Notes under the pieces: generated by a model
What the model was told of the DNA's origin: nothing
Seen by the model: only the letters and a program-made list of their open reading frames with translations
Database searches by the model: none
Assembly: GCA_017554145.1 (NCBI GenBank)
Contig: JAFZIZ010000015.1
Location: 62,001-126,000, forward strand
Reading direction: 5' to 3'
Length of the DNA stretch: 64,000 nt
Source of the DNA: Prevotella sp.
GTDB taxonomy: Bacteria; Bacteroidota; Bacteroidia; Bacteroidales; Bacteroidaceae
Shown: in pieces, positions 31,085 to 37,021 of the stretch
Position numbering within the stretch: position 1 is the stretch's first letter
Layout: the number at the start of each line of letters is the position of its first letter
Program-made: the position numbers and the translations under genes

Positions 31085-31109
31085 AAGAGTAGATTTTTGG
31101 TCTACTCTT
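31085..31109 (-). terminator. Terminator overlapping the stop codon of the last FKBP gene
   Basis: On the minus strand AAGAGTAGA (31109-31101), a 7-nt loop, TCTACTCTT (31093-31085), then TTTGTTTAAA. It is a perfect 9-bp stem. The TAG stop of the gene lies inside the upstream arm. Confidence 0.85.
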
Positions 31110-31986
31110 CTTGTTTTTGTTTGTCAACAATCTCCAAAAGTTCGATTTTAAATATCAACATGGAGAAGGGATCAATATCCTTACCTTGTTGATGCTCACC
31201 ATAGGCAAGTTCCTGAGGTATATATACTTCCCAAAGAGAACCGACTGGCATGTGGGTAAGCGCTTCCGTCCAGCCTTTGATGACCTGAGTGCAACGGAAT
31301 TCTGTAGGTTCACCACGCTTATAGGAACTGTCGAACACCTTACCGTTCAGCAGTCGTCCTTCATAGTGTACCTTTACCTTCTGGTTTACCTTAGGAATAA
31401 TACCTGTACCTTTTCTGAGAACTTTGTATTGTATACCGCTTTCGAGTGTGTTCACGTCTTTCTTCTTACCGTTTTTGGCAAGGAATTGCTCACCAGCTTT
31501 CTTGTTATCGCCAAATTTCTTCATCAGTTCCTCTGTCTTGACTTCCTTCATCAGCGTCTGTGCCTTGTCGTTGGCATCTTTCACTGTCATGAGTCCGTCT
31601 TTACCAGTAGTACCACTGATGAAACCAGCCAAGAAGAGGTCGGTAGAGATACTCTTGGTAGAGTCATTCCCGTAGATTTCCTTATTAATTCCAGGCAACA
31701 TCTGATTTGCAACCTGCTGACCAATCTGTGTGCCGATAAAGAATGCCGTCTTTCCCTTATCACTGCTGGAGGCAATAGCTTCACGGAGTCCTTCAATGAA
31801 ATTATCCATATAGTCAAGATCCATGTGTTGGCGATTTTTCAGAAAATCTACCAACCCCTGAGTCTGCGCCATACCAATAGCATAACTCAGTGTGTCAGTG
31901 CGTGACAGCAGTTGCTGTGCTTGGACGGAATTGAAAGAAGCACTCGTCACAAGGACGAGTGCTACTATAATGATTCTTTTCATCAT
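31102..31986 (-). CDS. FKBP-type peptidyl-prolyl isomerase, exported (copy 1)
   Basis: A protein of 294 residues with a signal peptide (cleavage near SVQAQ, about 24). An FKBP_N-type helical dimerisation region covers about 35-165, and an FKBP catalytic domain about 195-285: VKVHYEGRLLNGKVFDSSYKRGEP, QVIKGWTEALTHMPVGSLWEVYIP and YGEHQQGKDIDPFSMLIF. Mip/FkpA-like, so probably a periplasmic folding chaperone. It lies 3 bp after the second FKBP and is terminated by the hairpin at 31085-31109. Confidence 0.92.
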   Translation of the reverse strand: MMKRIIIVALVLVTSASFNSVQAQQLLSRTDTLSYAIGMAQTQGLVDFLKNRQHMDLDYMDNFIEGLREAIASSSDKGKTAFFIGTQIGQQVANQMLPGINKEIYGNDSTKSISTDLFLAGFISGTTGKDGLMTVKDANDKAQTLMKEVKTEELMKKFGDNKKAGEQFLAKNGKKKDVNTLESGIQYKVLRKGTGIIPKVNQKVKVHYEGRLLNGKVFDSSYKRGEPTEFRCTQVIKGWTEALTHMPVGSLWEVYIPQELAYGEHQQGKDIDPFSMLIFKIELLEIVDKQKQEE

Positions 31987-31989
31987 GGA

Positions 31990-32874
31990 TTATTTCTTCT
32001 TAGGATTAACCTCAATCAGTTCAATCTTGAAGATCAGCATAGAGAAAGGCTTGATGTCTTGACCTTGCTGACGAGAACCATAGGCAAGTTCCTGAGGAAT
32101 ATAAACTTCCCATACAGAACCTGCTGGCATGTGAACGAGAGCCTCTGTCCAACCCTTAATTACCTGGTTGCAACGGAACTCTGTGGGCTCACCACGCTTG
32201 TAAGAGCTATCGAACACCTTACCGTCAATAGTACGTCCCTCATAGTGTACCTTTACGCGAGAGGTATCAGCAGGGATGGCACCGTTACCTTCCTTGATGA
32301 CTTTGTACTGTAAACCACCATCAAGAGTCTTCACACCCTCTTTCTTGGCATTTTCAGCAAGGAACTTCTCACCAGCAGCCTTGTTAGGACCATATTCCTT
32401 CTCCATCGTCTTAGCCTTAATAGACTCCATCAGCTTCTGAGCAACAATCTGGGCAGAGTCAACAGTCATCAAACCACCCTTACCAGTAGTTCCGCTAATG
32501 AAACCAGCCATGAAGTTCTTCAAAGAGATGGTCTTGGTAGAGTCCTCACCAAACAGTTCGTGATTGATACCCTTAACCATCTGATTAGCAATCTGCTGAC
32601 CAATCTGAATACCGGCATAGTAAGCGGCTTTCTTCTTGTCGTCACCAGCGTTAGCACCTTCGTTCAGACCTTTGATAAACTCATCCATGTAGGCAGTGTC
32701 AATATCCAGACGACCTACAAGATAATCCTTTAGACCCTGTGTCTGAGCCATACCGATGGCATAGCTGACAGTATCAACATCACTCTTCAGGTTAGCCTTT
32801 GGAGTGGAATTGCCGCAAGAAAAGAATGTAACTGCGGCTACTGCTGCGAAAACAGCAAATGTAAACTTTCTCAT
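31990..32874 (-). CDS. FKBP-type peptidyl-prolyl isomerase, lipoprotein (copy 2)
   Basis: A protein of 294 residues, the same length and design as copy 1, but the N-terminus has a lipobox (AVTFFSCG, Cys about 20), so it is membrane anchored. The FKBP domain at about 195-290 keeps the same blocks (VKVHYEGRTIDGKVFDSSYKRGEP, VIKGWTEALVHMPAGSVWEVYIP). A tandem duplicate of copy 1 with a different targeting signal. 54 bp separate it from copy 3. Confidence 0.92.
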   Translation of the reverse strand: MRKFTFAVFAAVAAVTFFSCGNSTPKANLKSDVDTVSYAIGMAQTQGLKDYLVGRLDIDTAYMDEFIKGLNEGANAGDDKKKAAYYAGIQIGQQIANQMVKGINHELFGEDSTKTISLKNFMAGFISGTTGKGGLMTVDSAQIVAQKLMESIKAKTMEKEYGPNKAAGEKFLAENAKKEGVKTLDGGLQYKVIKEGNGAIPADTSRVKVHYEGRTIDGKVFDSSYKRGEPTEFRCNQVIKGWTEALVHMPAGSVWEVYIPQELAYGSRQQGQDIKPFSMLIFKIELIEVNPKKK

Positions 32875-32928
32875 TTTTTTTATTTAATTATTTATTTTGT
32901 ATTTCGTTATGACGTTTTATAATACCGT

Positions 32929-33534
32929 TTACATCACTTCGATTAACTCTACATCGAAGATAAGTGCTGCAAAGGGAGGGATAGAACTACCTGCACCGCC
33001 TTCGCCATAAGCCAGACGGTAGGGGATGAAGAAACGGTACTTAGCACCTTCCTGCATCAGTTGCAGACCTTCCGTCCATCCTGCAATGACTTGTTGAAGT
33101 CCGAAGACAGCAGGTTCACCACGCTGTACACTGCTATCAAAGACCGTACCATCGATGAGGAATCCCTCATAGTGACATTTCACACTATCTTTGGCAGAAG
33201 GTTTCTTGCCGTTACCTTCCTTCAGCACCTGATATTGCAATCCGCTGGGTAATGTGATGACACCGTCTTTCTTGGCGTTTTCGGCGAGATATTTCTCACC
33301 AGCCTCTTTGTGTACCTTACCCTGTTCGGAACGTTGCTTGTTGATTTTCTCTTCTTTTGCTGCGAAATACTCTTGCACAATCTGCTGAGCATCACGGTTA
33401 GAAACCTTCAACTCATTGCCTGCAATCACATCCTTGATGGCTGTGGCAAAATCGTCGATGTTCAGTTCTGTAGCACCCATCTGTGCTAACTGATGACCGA
33501 TGCCCAACCCCAGAGCATAACTTACTTTATCCAT
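32929..33534 (-). CDS. FKBP-type peptidyl-prolyl isomerase, no signal peptide (copy 3)
   Basis: A protein of 201 residues starting MDKVSYALGLGIGHQL, which is the point where the helical region of copies 1 and 2 begins after their signal sequences; no export signal is present, so it is probably cytoplasmic. The FKBP domain at about 110-200 has VKCHYEGFLIDGTVFDSSVQRGEP and VIAGWTEGLQLMQEGAKYRFFIP. Shorter and more diverged than the other two. The first gene of the cluster; minus-strand -7 box TATCTTTG at 33584-33577. Confidence 0.92.
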   Translation of the reverse strand: MDKVSYALGLGIGHQLAQMGATELNIDDFATAIKDVIAGNELKVSNRDAQQIVQEYFAAKEEKINKQRSEQGKVHKEAGEKYLAENAKKDGVITLPSGLQYQVLKEGNGKKPSAKDSVKCHYEGFLIDGTVFDSSVQRGEPAVFGLQQVIAGWTEGLQLMQEGAKYRFFIPYRLAYGEGGAGSSIPPFAALIFDVELIEVM

Positions 33535-33643
33535 TCTTTCTCTATATTAAATAATGTATGTGCCTCAAAAACGGCGCAAAGATACAACTATTTTCTGATT
33601 CGAACACCATATTTCCGAAAAAATTAGCATTCTTAAACGTAAA

Positions 33644-33675
33644 GAAGCCCCTTGGCAATATTACCAAGGAGCTTC
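33644..33675 (-). terminator. Terminator of the xpt-permease-rSAM-lipoprotein operon
   Basis: On the minus strand GAAGCTCCTTGG (33675-33664), an 8-nt loop, CCAAGGGGCTTC (33655-33644), followed by TTTACGTTT. It is a 12-bp stem with one G-U pair. Confidence 0.85.
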
Positions 33676-33698
33676 TCATGACTATTGCTGTAAAAGTT

Positions 33699-33968
33699 TT
33701 ACTCTTTGATTTTCTCGTTAAAGGTTGTAGGACGAGGGCCATATACTACCTTGCGTTGTTCCATCTGCTGACGATATTGACCTGCTGCCTTTATCTGATC
33801 CTTCAAACTCAAATTTTCGTTTTGCAGGTATTCGTTCTCTGCTTGGAGAACATTGATTCGCTCCTGAGCTTCTTTATAGGTCTTCTGAGAAACACAAGAA
33901 CCAAAGCCCAAAGCCACGATGATGGCCGAGAGGGCGATATTGATCATATTACGAATCTTTTTCATCAT
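33699..33968 (-). CDS. Small coiled-coil lipoprotein, probable partner of the radical SAM enzyme
   Basis: From the ATG at 33968 it has 89 residues: signal with lipobox (ALGFGSC, Cys about 25), then a heptad-rich coiled coil (QERINVLQAENEYLQNENL) and a short C-terminal tail VVYGPRPTTFNEKIKE. Apart from the lipid-anchored Cys there are no cysteines. Small lipoproteins of this kind next to this type of radical SAM enzyme are, as I recall, a defined pair of families (rSAM/lipoprotein system, TIGR04134 with TIGR04133). The tail with Tyr, Gly and Pro is the likeliest target for modification. It lies 67 bp after the enzyme gene in the same operon. Confidence 0.75.
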   Translation of the reverse strand: MMKKIRNMINIALSAIIVALGFGSCVSQKTYKEAQERINVLQAENEYLQNENLSLKDQIKAAGQYRQQMEQRKVVYGPRPTTFNEKIKE

Positions 33969-34035
33969 ATACGCAAACTTTTTGATTCTGGGTGCTAAAT
34001 TAGTGATTATTCTTGAATGACGTATCAATTAAAGA

Positions 34036-35124
34036 TTATTTAACTGTTTGGTCAACCTCTTGGATGCGTCGCAAGTGACAGAGAATCAGGTTGCCGTTGT
34101 CATCTCTTAAATGCATACCGTTACCTCTACAGTAGCGCCAGTAATGACAATCTTTACATTCACCCGTATGCATCCATTCTCTATTGCGATAAGGGGCATA
34201 GCAATTTTCCCATACCTCCATAAAATCGTCTTCATAAATATTGCCTTGGTTATAGTCGGCACGGATACTGGCACAAGCGGCAATAGAACCGTCTGCCATC
34301 ACAGAGCCTACTGTGATACCTGCCTGACAGTCGAAAAACATCTCTCGCACTTCACCTTCATAACGTCCAAGGAATCCCTCACAACCATAGGAAGCATTAA
34401 TCTTTCCTTCTTGGCGTGTCTGGCGAATGAAGTCAAGCATACCCCTATATTGCTCGTTGCTAATCTGCATCATCGGATCATGGGCGGCACGACCAATAGG
34501 GAAGATAGAGTAGATACGCCAATAGCCGATACCTTTCCCGATAAGATAGTCACGGATAGCAGGCAATTGGTCGTAGTTACGTTGGTTGACACAGGTAACT
34601 ACATCGGAAGCTATCTGCGGATACTTCACGAAGAGGTCTAAAGTCTGGTCGACCATCTGGAAACTCTGTGGATGACGGCGCATCCAGTCATGGTTCTCTT
34701 CCAGTCCGTCCAGACTGACGGTAATGCTGTGCATCCCTGCTTTCCGAAGCGACTCAAAACGTTCAGGAGTAAGGACTAAGCCGTTGGTGACCATTCCCCA
34801 TGGGAAACCTCTCTCGAAGATTCCTTGTCCACAAAGTTCCAGATCATCCCGCATCAAAGGCTCACCACCTGTAATGGTAACGAATACTTTGTGGGGATTG
34901 GTCTTCTGGGCAATGCTGTCAAGTACACGAAAGAAATCCTCACGGGGCATGTCTTTTACCTCTGAGAGCTTCCTACAATCACTTCCACAATGGCGACAAC
35001 TCACATTACAGCGTAAAGTGCATTCCCAGAAAAGTTGTCTAAGGGGATGCTCCTTACGGATATTCTTACTGATATGTGTCGCTAACTCGAGAGCGATGCG
35101 CTTACGGAAAGTCAGTTCACTCAT
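34036..35124 (-). CDS. Radical SAM/SPASM enzyme of a putative rSAM/lipoprotein system
   Basis: A protein of 362 residues. The 4Fe-4S SAM-binding cysteines are in ECTLRCNVSCRHC (CxxxCxxC, about 39-46). ITGGEPLMRDDL and SLDGLEENHD follow the radical SAM barrel. A C-terminal SPASM-like region (about 240-350) has cysteines in CEGF, CQAG, CASI, then CKDCHYW..C....C. SPASM members modify peptides or proteins. With the small lipoprotein next door it matches my recollection of the Bacteroidota rSAM/lipoprotein pair (TIGR04133). Target and chemistry are unknown. It overlaps the xanthine permease gene by 8 nt. Confidence 0.85.
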   Translation of the reverse strand: MSELTFRKRIALELATHISKNIRKEHPLRQLFWECTLRCNVSCRHCGSDCRKLSEVKDMPREDFFRVLDSIAQKTNPHKVFVTITGGEPLMRDDLELCGQGIFERGFPWGMVTNGLVLTPERFESLRKAGMHSITVSLDGLEENHDWMRRHPQSFQMVDQTLDLFVKYPQIASDVVTCVNQRNYDQLPAIRDYLIGKGIGYWRIYSIFPIGRAAHDPMMQISNEQYRGMLDFIRQTRQEGKINASYGCEGFLGRYEGEVREMFFDCQAGITVGSVMADGSIAACASIRADYNQGNIYEDDFMEVWENCYAPYRNREWMHTGECKDCHYWRYCRGNGMHLRDDNGNLILCHLRRIQEVDQTVK

Positions 35125-36445
35125 TCGTTTCTTCTATCGTTTGTGCCTTTGTTTTGTCTTTAGGCAGGATGAGGTTGAGAATGACAGCCAATAAGAAGAC
35201 AACGGCAACACAGTTCTCTGCAAACACAGTCTGTACCATCTTCGGGAAGATGGAGAACATACCTGCTGCTTGTGTGAATCCAAGTCCCACGCTAAGCGAC
35301 ATAGCGACAATTATCATGTTACGGTCACTGAAACCACAGTTGGCCAGCATACGGAAACCTGCAAACATGATAGAACCGAACATCATGATGGTACAACCAC
35401 CCAAAACAGCCTGGGGAATCGTGGTCAAAATAGCACCAACAGCAGGGAAGATACCGCCTAAGATCATGATACAGGCACCTGTGGCGATAGCAAAGCGGTT
35501 GACAACCCTCGACATAGCCGCCAATCCCACGTTCTGACTGAATGAGGTAATAGGGGTACAACCGAAGAGTCCTGCGATACTGCTCACGAAACCGTCGCAC
35601 GAGACACTAGCCCCTAATTCTTTCTTATGGGTAGAACGATTGAGGGCACTCGAACAAAGAGCACTGGTATCACCAATGGTCTCTGTGGCAGAAACCATAT
35701 AGATGGCGAGGATAGAAAGGAAAGCCCCTACCTCGAACTCTGGTTTGAAAGGCATGAAATTAGGTAAGGAAACAATTCCTGTGTTCTGCAATCCAGAGAA
35801 GTCTACCATTCCCATACAGACAGCAAGGATATAACCTGCTATCAAACCAATCAGGACAGACAGAGAACGAAGGAAACCCTTGGCAAAGATTTGGAAGCCC
35901 AAACATACTAACAACGTGAACGTACCTACAATCCAATTGTTCATTGAACCGAAATCAGCAGCCCCTTGTCCACCGGCAAACGAATTGGCACCGATGGGCA
36001 ACAGTGAGAAACCGATGGCGGTTACTACAGTTGCGGCAACTATATGTGGAATGAGTTTTGTCCAGTAATTGGGGAATAGTCCTAAGAGTCCTTCAATGAT
36101 ACCACCAAGGATAACAGCACCCATCAACACACCCATTCCCTGAGCCGTAGCAATGGCAAGGGAAGCAGAGAGGAATGTGAAACTGATACCCATGACAATG
36201 GGCAGACGAGAACCAATGCGCCAGATGGGATATAACTGTATCAGTGTACCGATACCTGCGATAATCATACAGTTCTGTATTAGTGTTGCACTAACAGCAG
36301 AGTCTATTCCTACCACATTGGCAAGGATAATAATCGGTGTGATATTGGCAACGAACATCGCCAATACATGTTGCAGTCCGAAAGGAATGGCTTGTACCAA
36401 AGGTACCCTGCCGTCCAATTGGTAAAGTTTGCTTTTGTTTTCCAT
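35117..36445 (-). CDS. Xanthine/uracil-type NCS2 permease
   Basis: A polytopic inner-membrane symporter of 442 residues, with about 12-14 hydrophobic helices. Family landmarks: FGLQHVLAMFVANITPI at the start, ATVVTAIGFSLLPIGANSFAGG, and the signature region SATETIGDTSALCSSALNR with the substrate-binding Glu. It follows xpt by 6 bp, so xanthine is the best guess for the substrate: import and immediate phosphoribosylation. The downstream overlap with the radical SAM gene joins purine salvage and the rSAM pair in one transcript. Confidence 0.92.
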   Translation of the reverse strand: MENKSKLYQLDGRVPLVQAIPFGLQHVLAMFVANITPIIILANVVGIDSAVSATLIQNCMIIAGIGTLIQLYPIWRIGSRLPIVMGISFTFLSASLAIATAQGMGVLMGAVILGGIIEGLLGLFPNYWTKLIPHIVAATVVTAIGFSLLPIGANSFAGGQGAADFGSMNNWIVGTFTLLVCLGFQIFAKGFLRSLSVLIGLIAGYILAVCMGMVDFSGLQNTGIVSLPNFMPFKPEFEVGAFLSILAIYMVSATETIGDTSALCSSALNRSTHKKELGASVSCDGFVSSIAGLFGCTPITSFSQNVGLAAMSRVVNRFAIATGACIMILGGIFPAVGAILTTIPQAVLGGCTIMMFGSIMFAGFRMLANCGFSDRNMIIVAMSLSVGLGFTQAAGMFSIFPKMVQTVFAENCVAVVFLLAVILNLILPKDKTKAQTIEETNE

Positions 36446-36451
36446 TGTAGT

Positions 36452-37021
36452 TTATTTCAATTTTATTTGATTATTCTCCAACGACTCGATGATAGCCAAC
36501 GACTCGATACGCCTGATGCCTGCCCCATGCAATACTTTCCTGCCCTGCTGGAATTCTTTTTCGATGATGAAACCCATTCCTACAATTTCGGCTCCTGCCT
36601 GACGACACAGGTCGATGATACCCAATCCGGCATTACCATAGGCAAGGAAGTCATCGACAAACAGCACTCTATCGTTACTTGTCAGGTAATCGCGACTGAC
36701 GGTCAAAGGGTACTCACGCTGCTTGGTAAATGAATGCACTGTCGATTCATAGAACTCACCCATCGTAGAAGGTTTTTTCTTCTTGGCGAAGACCACAGGG
36801 AGTTCCATCAGATAACCCAGCATAATAGCAGGTGCAATTCCTGATGCTTCTACTGTCACGATCTTATTAATATCCTCGTCGGCAAAGCGTCGGATAAACT
36901 CAATGGCAATCTGTTTCATTAGATAAGGGTCCATCTGATGATTGATGAAACGGTCTACTTTCAAGATGCCGCCCTCTAAGCAACGACCATCTTGCATGAT
37001 TCTGTCGCGTAATACTTTCAT
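36452..37021 (-). CDS. xpt: Xanthine phosphoribosyltransferase
   Basis: Converts xanthine and PRPP to XMP in purine salvage. The 189 residues match the Xpt family. The PRPP motif is [17 protein letters not shown] (about 126-142); [20 protein letters not shown] and [12 protein letters not shown] are typical of Xpt rather than other PRTases. It heads the operon with a permease. The minus-strand -7 box TATTTTTG is at 37049-37042, about 20 nt before the ATG, so there is no room for the purine riboswitch that controls xpt in Firmicutes. Confidence 0.95.

Follow-up and report, generated by a model that had tools for sequence, protein, structure and literature searches.

TIGR04133 radical SAM enzymes adjoin diverse proteins with a Tyr-Gly-x-Pro motif, the probable site of a PlpX-like splicing reaction

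The enzyme and lipoprotein genes

The window, the whole 64,000-nucleotide stretch of Prevotella sp. DNA that was analysed, carries a radical SAM enzyme gene followed by the gene for a small lipoprotein. Both lie on the minus strand with the enzyme gene first, as an earlier note on this DNA had described. The features of the locus are as follows.

36452..37021, minus strand: xanthine phosphoribosyltransferase gene xpt, operon context (TIGR01744, 270.6 bits)
35117..36445, minus strand: xanthine permease gene pbuX, upstream of the enzyme gene and outside the proposed mechanism (TIGR03173, 440.6 bits)
34036..35124, minus strand: TIGR04133 radical SAM/SPASM enzyme, 362 aa, proposed splicease (HMM 567.4 bits, PF04055 and PF13186 matches, tree placement)
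34987..35010, minus strand: codons C39-C46 of the radical SAM CxxxCxxC (translation; C43 and C46 invariant, C39 nearly so, in 26 members)
34144..34329, minus strand: SPASM auxiliary cluster region, residues 266-327 (PF13186 match; C266, C284 and C326 invariant in 26 members)
33699..33965, minus strand: small coiled-coil-like lipoprotein, 88 aa, proposed substrate (translation)
33894..33965, minus strand: signal peptide and lipid-anchor Cys24 in LGFGSC (sequence reading; L19, G20, F21 and C24 invariant in six proteins)
33729..33746, minus strand: VYGPRP (V74-P79), proposed X-Tyr-Gly-x-Pro modification site (V74, Y75, G76 and P77 invariant in six proteins)
about 33642..33677, minus strand: 16-bp hairpin after the lipoprotein gene, terminator-like (fold -27.3 kcal/mol, z -5.74)

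The end of pbuX and the enzyme gene overlap, and pbuX in turn comes after xpt; thus the enzyme gene is probably part of a xanthine-salvage operon. The order pbuX-enzyme-lipoprotein recurs in one congener (L330). A strong terminator had been proposed after the lipoprotein gene; the hairpin there is indeed strong, but its U tract (UUUACGUUU) is weak and a consensus scan missed it. Just downstream, at 31102-33534 of the window, lie three tandem genes for FKBP-type prolyl isomerases, all scoring over the cut-off for BamJ (beta-barrel assembly).

The enzyme proved to be a full member of TIGR04133, the family named in the earlier note, with 567.4 bits against a cut-off of 425 and a match spanning model positions 1-350 of 350. 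It is likewise a SPASM-type radical SAM protein, since PF04055 (67.3 bits) and PF13186 (SPASM, 27.7 bits) both match above their gathering scores. By sequence reading, its CxxxCxxC is C39-C43-C46; further cysteines at positions 35, 50, 248, 266, 284, 326, 332 and 349 are invariant across 26 family members. Matches among solved structures comprised 12 distinct sequences at E <=0.001, all of them distant radical SAM enzymes.

The lipoprotein has 88 residues when read from its second Met and the previously given 89 when read from the first. Its one cysteine, as described before, is C24, in the lipobox candidate LGFGSC that we read at residues 19-24. The middle of the protein is heptad-like, as judged by eye only, and the tail reads VVYGPRPTTFNEKIKE. 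In NCBIfam, TIGR04133 is paired with TIGR04134 as an rSAM/lipoprotein system, and the earlier note had pointed to this pair for the two genes. Whereas the window enzyme fits this pair, the lipoprotein scores 13.1 bits against a TIGR04134 cut-off of 39.8, in a match limited to the signal peptide (model positions 2-26), which rules out membership; its detected similarity to that family consists of the signal peptide and Tyr-Gly-x-Pro only. Elsewhere in its own genome (assembly 83.5% complete) no TIGR04134 protein over the cut-off was found, nor any convincing second lipoprotein of the window type, the next best match having E 0.002 and covering mostly the N-terminal half. A link to PG1828-type lipoproteins was dropped since the five members inspected lack Tyr-Gly; that model matches 170 of 198 genomes and exceeds its cut-off in 6.

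Orthologues of the window lipoprotein occur in 4 of 149 searched genomes, its own included. The tails of the other three read VVYGPRPTGF, VVYGPRPSGF and VVYGPPPGRF, and VVYGP is kept while the middle of the protein diverges. All three of these genomes (G571, G573 and G621) carry TIGR04133: the enzyme gene lies 93 bp upstream of the lipoprotein gene in G571 and about 1 kb upstream in G573, and in G621 it is a partial gene at a contig end, on another contig than the lipoprotein. When the window type was aligned with two small lipoproteins from other loci (L036 and L038; six proteins in all), the invariant residues were M1, K2, L19, G20, F21, C24, E69 and the V74-Y75-G76-P77 of the tail.

The Tyr-Gly-x-Pro motif in neighbours of the enzyme family

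Tyr-Gly-x-Pro recurred repeatedly when genes beside the enzyme were inspected, and it was then counted by a single rule: a neighbour on the same strand with an ATG start, a length of 40-260 aa, a gap of <=600 bp and the pattern YG-x(1,2)-P. Loci came from a family sample, from an order sample, in which the reading took in 83 of 88 further TIGR04133 matches, and from named records, where at least 80 loci matched, L090-L138 among them being family or near-family. An HMM built from 26 members splits the family (at least 319 bits) from other radical SAM proteins (159 bits at most) among the loci examined. For a strict set, near-identical and overlapping copies were dropped (no shared 60-residue stretch), leaving 189 family loci and 40 other radical SAM loci.

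A motif-bearing neighbour was found at 157/189 TIGR04133-like loci and at 0/40 other radical SAM loci (Fisher 3.5e-25), the family share being made up of 27/39 in the family sample, 37/45 in the named records and 93/105 in the order sample. Shuffled ORFs gave a mean of 10.6 of 189 (maximum 18), and decoy forms (GY, FG, WG, HG, YA, YS, YN, YD, VG and TG) between 5 and 33 of 189. Plain Tyr-Gly occurs at 166/189 family loci versus 7/40 control loci. A looser set, in which 293 ORF hits were reduced via identical C-terminal stretches to 207 family and 41 other enzymes, includes some one-gene copies from overlapping loci and gives 173/207 versus 0/41; here eleven decoys, the reversed motif included, reach 5 to 34 of 207, and shuffles average 11.7 (maximum 22). 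All of these other motifs fall far below YG, and we rejected them as explanations of the pairing. The median gap between enzyme and neighbour in the looser set is 1 bp, with <=50 bp at 143 of the 173 loci. Thus the co-occurrence anticipated in the earlier note holds in that the enzyme is widely paired with motif-bearing neighbours, but these are many BLAST-unrelated proteins and not one lipoprotein.

Among 258 sites, which had been preselected for Pro at +3 or +4, Pro stands at +3 in 90%. Before Tyr, the commonest residues are Glu, Met, Cys, Val, Lys and Leu. At +7 an aromatic residue is common (Tyr in 28% of sites, Phe in 20%), much of this coming from the TIGR04134-type group, and besides Tyr, Gly and Pro no site position exceeds 34% for one residue.

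The looser set contains 208 distinct motif-bearing neighbours (193 in the strict set). With the motif and the first 32 residues masked, they fall into 67 groups without mutual BLAST match, a figure that overstates their independence since masked short proteins offer little to match: the window protein, L036 and L038 land in separate groups and yet align at 31-40%. A few of the motif ORFs, such as the one in L039 and an overlapping frame in L094, are surely not real genes. The largest group, with the TIGR04134-type domain, accounts for 119 of the 208, and the remaining 89 are spread over 66 groups. A simple lipobox pattern is matched by 134 of the 208; a slightly wider lipobox window is failed by 71, many of which still resemble lipoproteins with an unusual lipobox. 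One motif is present in 166 neighbours, two in 35, three in six and four in one, so that 42 carry two or more. By eye, no signal peptide is seen in three neighbours (L046, L050 and L265). L050 carries four motifs, and L265 contains two exact copies and one partial copy of IDDVECIYGPPPGFDDDYRE, as repeats around IYGPPPG. With three or four YGPP-type motifs each, these three proteins look, from their sequences, like multi-site precursors with repeated core sites.

Two further arrangements were seen. In L120, a record titled Acetofilamentum, four consecutive lipoprotein-like genes are found upstream of the enzyme gene, and every one of them has at least one KYGVP-like motif, some of them several. 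In L045, L048, L051, L116 and L117 the enzyme adjoins a lipoprotein of roughly 475 aa whose core (CCMNCHTSN, VYGRPYI) is conserved.

The rule failed at 32/189 loci in the strict set and 34/207 in the looser one, and among the failures inspected the circumstances vary. In L025 the site is present within a merged frame; in L170, L112, L192, L111 and L098 the motif protein is too long, too distant or on the opposite strand; in L131, L275, L282 and L291 Tyr-Gly is present and the Pro spacing absent; and L044, L047, L049 and L238 are located close to the end of a contig or directly at it. No partner was found near the enzyme in L090, L092, L042, L040, L031, L052, L053 and L055, among others. It is possible that the partner gene of such empty loci lies elsewhere in the genome, and TIGR04134-type proteins that are unlinked to the enzyme, on another contig, do keep the motif (L314 in G285, L320 in G486).

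One of the empty loci bears on whether the window lipoprotein is a substrate at all. The enzyme of L090, the closest named one among the matches listed (82% identical to the window enzyme), has no motif neighbour, and the window protein lies outside TIGR04134; hence one might suppose that the enzyme acts on the larger TIGR04134-type lipoproteins only, and that the window lipoprotein merely shares the operon and has YGPRP by chance. We consider this most improbable, given a tail that three congeners and two other enzyme-adjacent small lipoproteins keep, a motif present in 66 groups beyond the TIGR04134-type one, and an own genome in which neither a second such lipoprotein nor a TIGR04134 protein over the cut-off was found.

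TIGR04134 itself offers a natural test. In the order sample it exceeds its cut-off in 54/393 genomes, 51 of which have TIGR04133 (background 97/393; Fisher 4e-33), and in the family sample in 20/151, 18 of them with TIGR04133 (background 45/151; Fisher 2e-9); related genomes are non-independent here, and a few genomes belong to both samples. In five genomes the lipoprotein is present and no enzyme was detected, also after the enzyme search was repeated at E <=1e-20. One of these, G003 (L071), keeps the motif and was left out of the testable cases since the neighbouring DNA reads N. Tyr is lost in three of the four others, where the site reads EHGTPS (L078), GNGSPY (L310) and DNKTPH (L311, from G515, a genome only 75% complete); the fourth (L309), likewise from a genome in which no enzyme was found, retains Tyr-Gly but has no Pro. 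In 140 out of 161 distinct TIGR04134-family-like hits, a Tyr-Gly near the start of the protein has a Pro at most a few residues after it. The other 21 are the merged frame of L025, with the site present; two weak hits in the window's own genome (L007 and L008), surely unrelated; 14, including L309, in which the context of Tyr-Gly differs; and four TIGR04134-type proteins without Tyr-Gly, namely L078, L310, L311 and L313, the last being a paralogue on another contig in an enzyme-bearing genome.

These losses also speak to the idea that the neighbours are not substrates, and that the lipoproteins aid the enzyme or share its regulation while YG-x-P serves, for example, in binding. The loss of Tyr in three of four testable enzyme-less genomes argues against this idea, as does a motif common to dozens of BLAST-unrelated proteins, some with repeats and no anchor, and we regard it as very unlikely. 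As the motif is the sole common feature of the neighbours, it is well supported that YG-x-P is the place the enzyme alters. That the window lipoprotein is the substrate and its Tyr-Gly-Pro tail the site, as the earlier note had proposed, is very probable in view of the motif at 157/189 loci, the conserved tails and the repeated motifs.

Kinship with the PlpX splicease

Known SPASM enzymes alter Tyr in a variety of ways, as MftC and PqqE illustrate; MftC acts on a Val-Tyr pair at a peptide C-terminus. PlpX (IPR026482), which we take to belong to TIGR04103, is a SPASM radical SAM enzyme of Pleurocapsa that works with PlpY on spliceotide precursors. Passages of two papers describe it as excising tyramine from X-Tyr-Gly (PMC10533398; PMC10373908). 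Its natural sites are MYG and LYG. The stated minimum tag is ten residues, and among the FtsZ placements tried only two spliced, both with PIRPGYGLPI, a Tyr-Gly-x-Pro (PMC10533398); thus PlpX is not free of context. A PlpX product has also been trapped by means of a tetrazine (PMC10533398).

A TIGR04103-like counterpart came from a plasmid search: a Nostoc enzyme annotated as nif11-class peptide radical SAM maturase 3, the TIGR04103 name, has an upstream Nif11 precursor ending in ALYGLPPELF and a 71-aa gene after it. On the Nostoc plasmid p057_G (L323), a single stretch combines a PlpX-type enzyme with Nif11 and NHLP precursors and with TOMM genes. A tree of 68 enzymes was rooted at its midpoint; in it the Nostoc homologue stands for PlpX, MftC and PqqE form long branches, authenticated AhbD and NirJ lay outside the sampling, and TIGR04133 is one clade. 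Its sister clade is the PlpX/GDL group of Nostoc, Aureibacter, Azospirillum, Tropicibacter, Agathobacter and L334 enzymes. The joining branch has 98/98 and excludes the MftC-, PqqE-, TIGR04053- and TIGR04347-type enzymes together with 31 distant relatives. Eleven positions are common to the two groups and rare elsewhere, the clearest being G47, S48, W202, G250, E256 and R260.

The window system resembles PlpX/PlpY in that a SPASM enzyme goes with a partner bearing X-Tyr-Gly (VYG in the window protein), in the Tyr-Gly-x-Pro found in the FtsZ-spliced tags and in the precursor of the Nostoc homologue, and in that several sites per precursor are allowed and short tags can suffice. Unlike that system, TIGR04133 loci show no RRE partner within 600 bp and no Nif11 or NHLP leader, their partners are mostly lipoproteins, and the enzymes form a separate clade that occurs above all in Bacteroidota. 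Nor was any conserved non-motif neighbour detected within 600 bp; the largest such cluster covers 13/207 loci, and its example is itself a Tyr-Gly protein. Since PlpX works with PlpY and no conserved small partner is seen at TIGR04133 loci, mechanism or recognition may differ between the two. TIGR04103 exceeded its cut-off in none of 198 genomes of the phylum, two of which had matches at E <=1e-60.

The GDL-motif maturases with DUF1843 peptides (TIGR03913) are also sister-clade enzymes, and two of the five peptides have Tyr-Gly: RPYGPAMVEA in one of two Azospirillum peptides and QPYGAGIREA in one of three Aureibacter peptides. They differ in that the peptides are small, show no signal peptide by eye and in three cases lack Tyr-Gly, and in that the enzymes belong to another clade. 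Possibly the GDL-type enzymes beside DUF1843 peptides (L335:2287-2742, L327:3186-3899) are spliceases as well. No small precursor was found for the Tropicibacter enzyme among the neighbouring genes inspected. Mycofactocin MftC is comparable as a SPASM enzyme acting on a Val-Tyr pair, as in the window tail, but it acts at the C-terminus, has the chaperone gene mftB adjoining and falls outside the TIGR04133/PlpX group.

The main alternative to splicing is that Tyr or its neighbours in YG-x-P undergo another radical reaction, such as a Tyr cross-link to a nearby residue, beta-carbon oxidation or decarboxylation-type chemistry, with no ketoamide product. SPASM reactions on Tyr are varied, as noted for MftC and PqqE, and both Pro at +3 and the aromatic at +7 could be cross-link partners. 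Nor do the family HMM scores set PlpX apart: the window enzyme scores 117.9 bits with TIGR04103, short of the cut-off of 725, and this family is no nearer than the heme synthase AhbD (120 bits) or NirJ2 (118.6 bits). However, the sister group is the PlpX/GDL clade with its shared residues, and not MftC or PqqE; a Tyr-Gly-Leu-Pro context is found in a PlpX-type precursor too; and Gly is conserved together with Tyr, which the splice motif requires. We therefore find a different radical reaction doubtful.

Kinship with the PlpX splicease points instead to removal of part of Tyr from the backbone, and by analogy with PlpX, tyramine excision is the likely chemistry. The earlier note had spoken of a new kind of system; to call it wholly new is too strong, as the motif and the phylogeny point to the known PlpX splicease reaction.

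The proposed reaction and its distribution

Our best explanation overall, which we hold to be probable, is that tyramine is excised at Tyr75 and the lipoprotein then exported, with a ketoamide near its C-terminus. The enzyme, recognizing the motif alone and without an RRE partner, would act on Tyr75 of VVYGPRP while the lipoprotein is still in the cytoplasm, not yet exported or lipidated. A tyramine equivalent (C8H9NO, about -135 Da) would leave at Val74-Tyr75-Gly76, and the Tyr carbonyl would be joined to the Val74 carbonyl. The backbone would then contain an alpha-keto-beta-amino (ketoamide) residue that bears the Val side chain and precedes Gly-Pro. After export and lipidation, the mature lipoprotein would show an electrophilic ketoamide near its C-terminus. 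We infer both the stand-alone action and the timing before export. Recognition of a short motif without an RRE partner would allow one enzyme family to serve many unrelated proteins, and the TIGR04133 enzymes most likely act as stand-alone spliceases, introducing alpha-keto-beta-amino residues into lipoproteins as well as other proteins.

Protease inhibition is reported for spliced products in passages of PMC10373908, and thus the most natural guess for the role of the modified lipoprotein is a membrane-anchored, reversible-covalent protease inhibitor, or some other covalent bait. If splicing does occur, it raises the question of why bacteria would place a ketoamide, a protease-inhibiting group, on the envelope, and a short tag that suffices without a partner could be of use in protein labelling. 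For TIGR04133/TIGR04134, a database pair without an assigned function, the shared motif provides a site and a candidate reaction with an exact mass shift.

The literature searched contained no paper naming TIGR04133, TIGR04134 or these lipoproteins, none joining radical SAM, Tyr-Gly and lipoprotein, and none on TIGR04103 or a ketoamide lipoprotein; the nearest by wording (radical SAM, lipoprotein, Bacteroidetes, SPASM) deal, in the passages matched, with graspetides and conflict systems. The splicease survey of Scott 2022 lay outside that search. According to passages in papers that cite it, it found splicing to be broadly distributed, and it may include the TIGR04133 family.

TIGR04133 was detected at E <=1e-60 in 45/151 family genomes and 97/393 order genomes, and over its cut-off in 44 and 87 of them, respectively. 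Commensals with the pair include Phocaeicola massiliensis and Parabacteroides distasonis. Backbone splicing that acts on lipoproteins would accordingly be common in Bacteroidales if the enzymes have the proposed activity. It could even be, though we offer this broader picture more tentatively than the reaction itself, that about a quarter of sampled Bacteroidales run stand-alone splicing at X-Tyr-Gly-x-Pro of envelope lipoproteins and other proteins, with ketoamides on the envelope probably trapping proteases. TIGR04133 would then form a splicease branch of very large size, the first one devoted mainly to membrane-anchored proteins.

Relatives outside Bacteroidota, among the matches listed, come from Treponema, Spirochaetaceae, Fibrobacter, Neomarinimicrobiota and Clostridia records, mostly metagenome bins. 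Two loci, G445:C2 (L268) and G508:C81 (L278), have two adjacent TIGR04133 genes, which may differ in the sites they act on.
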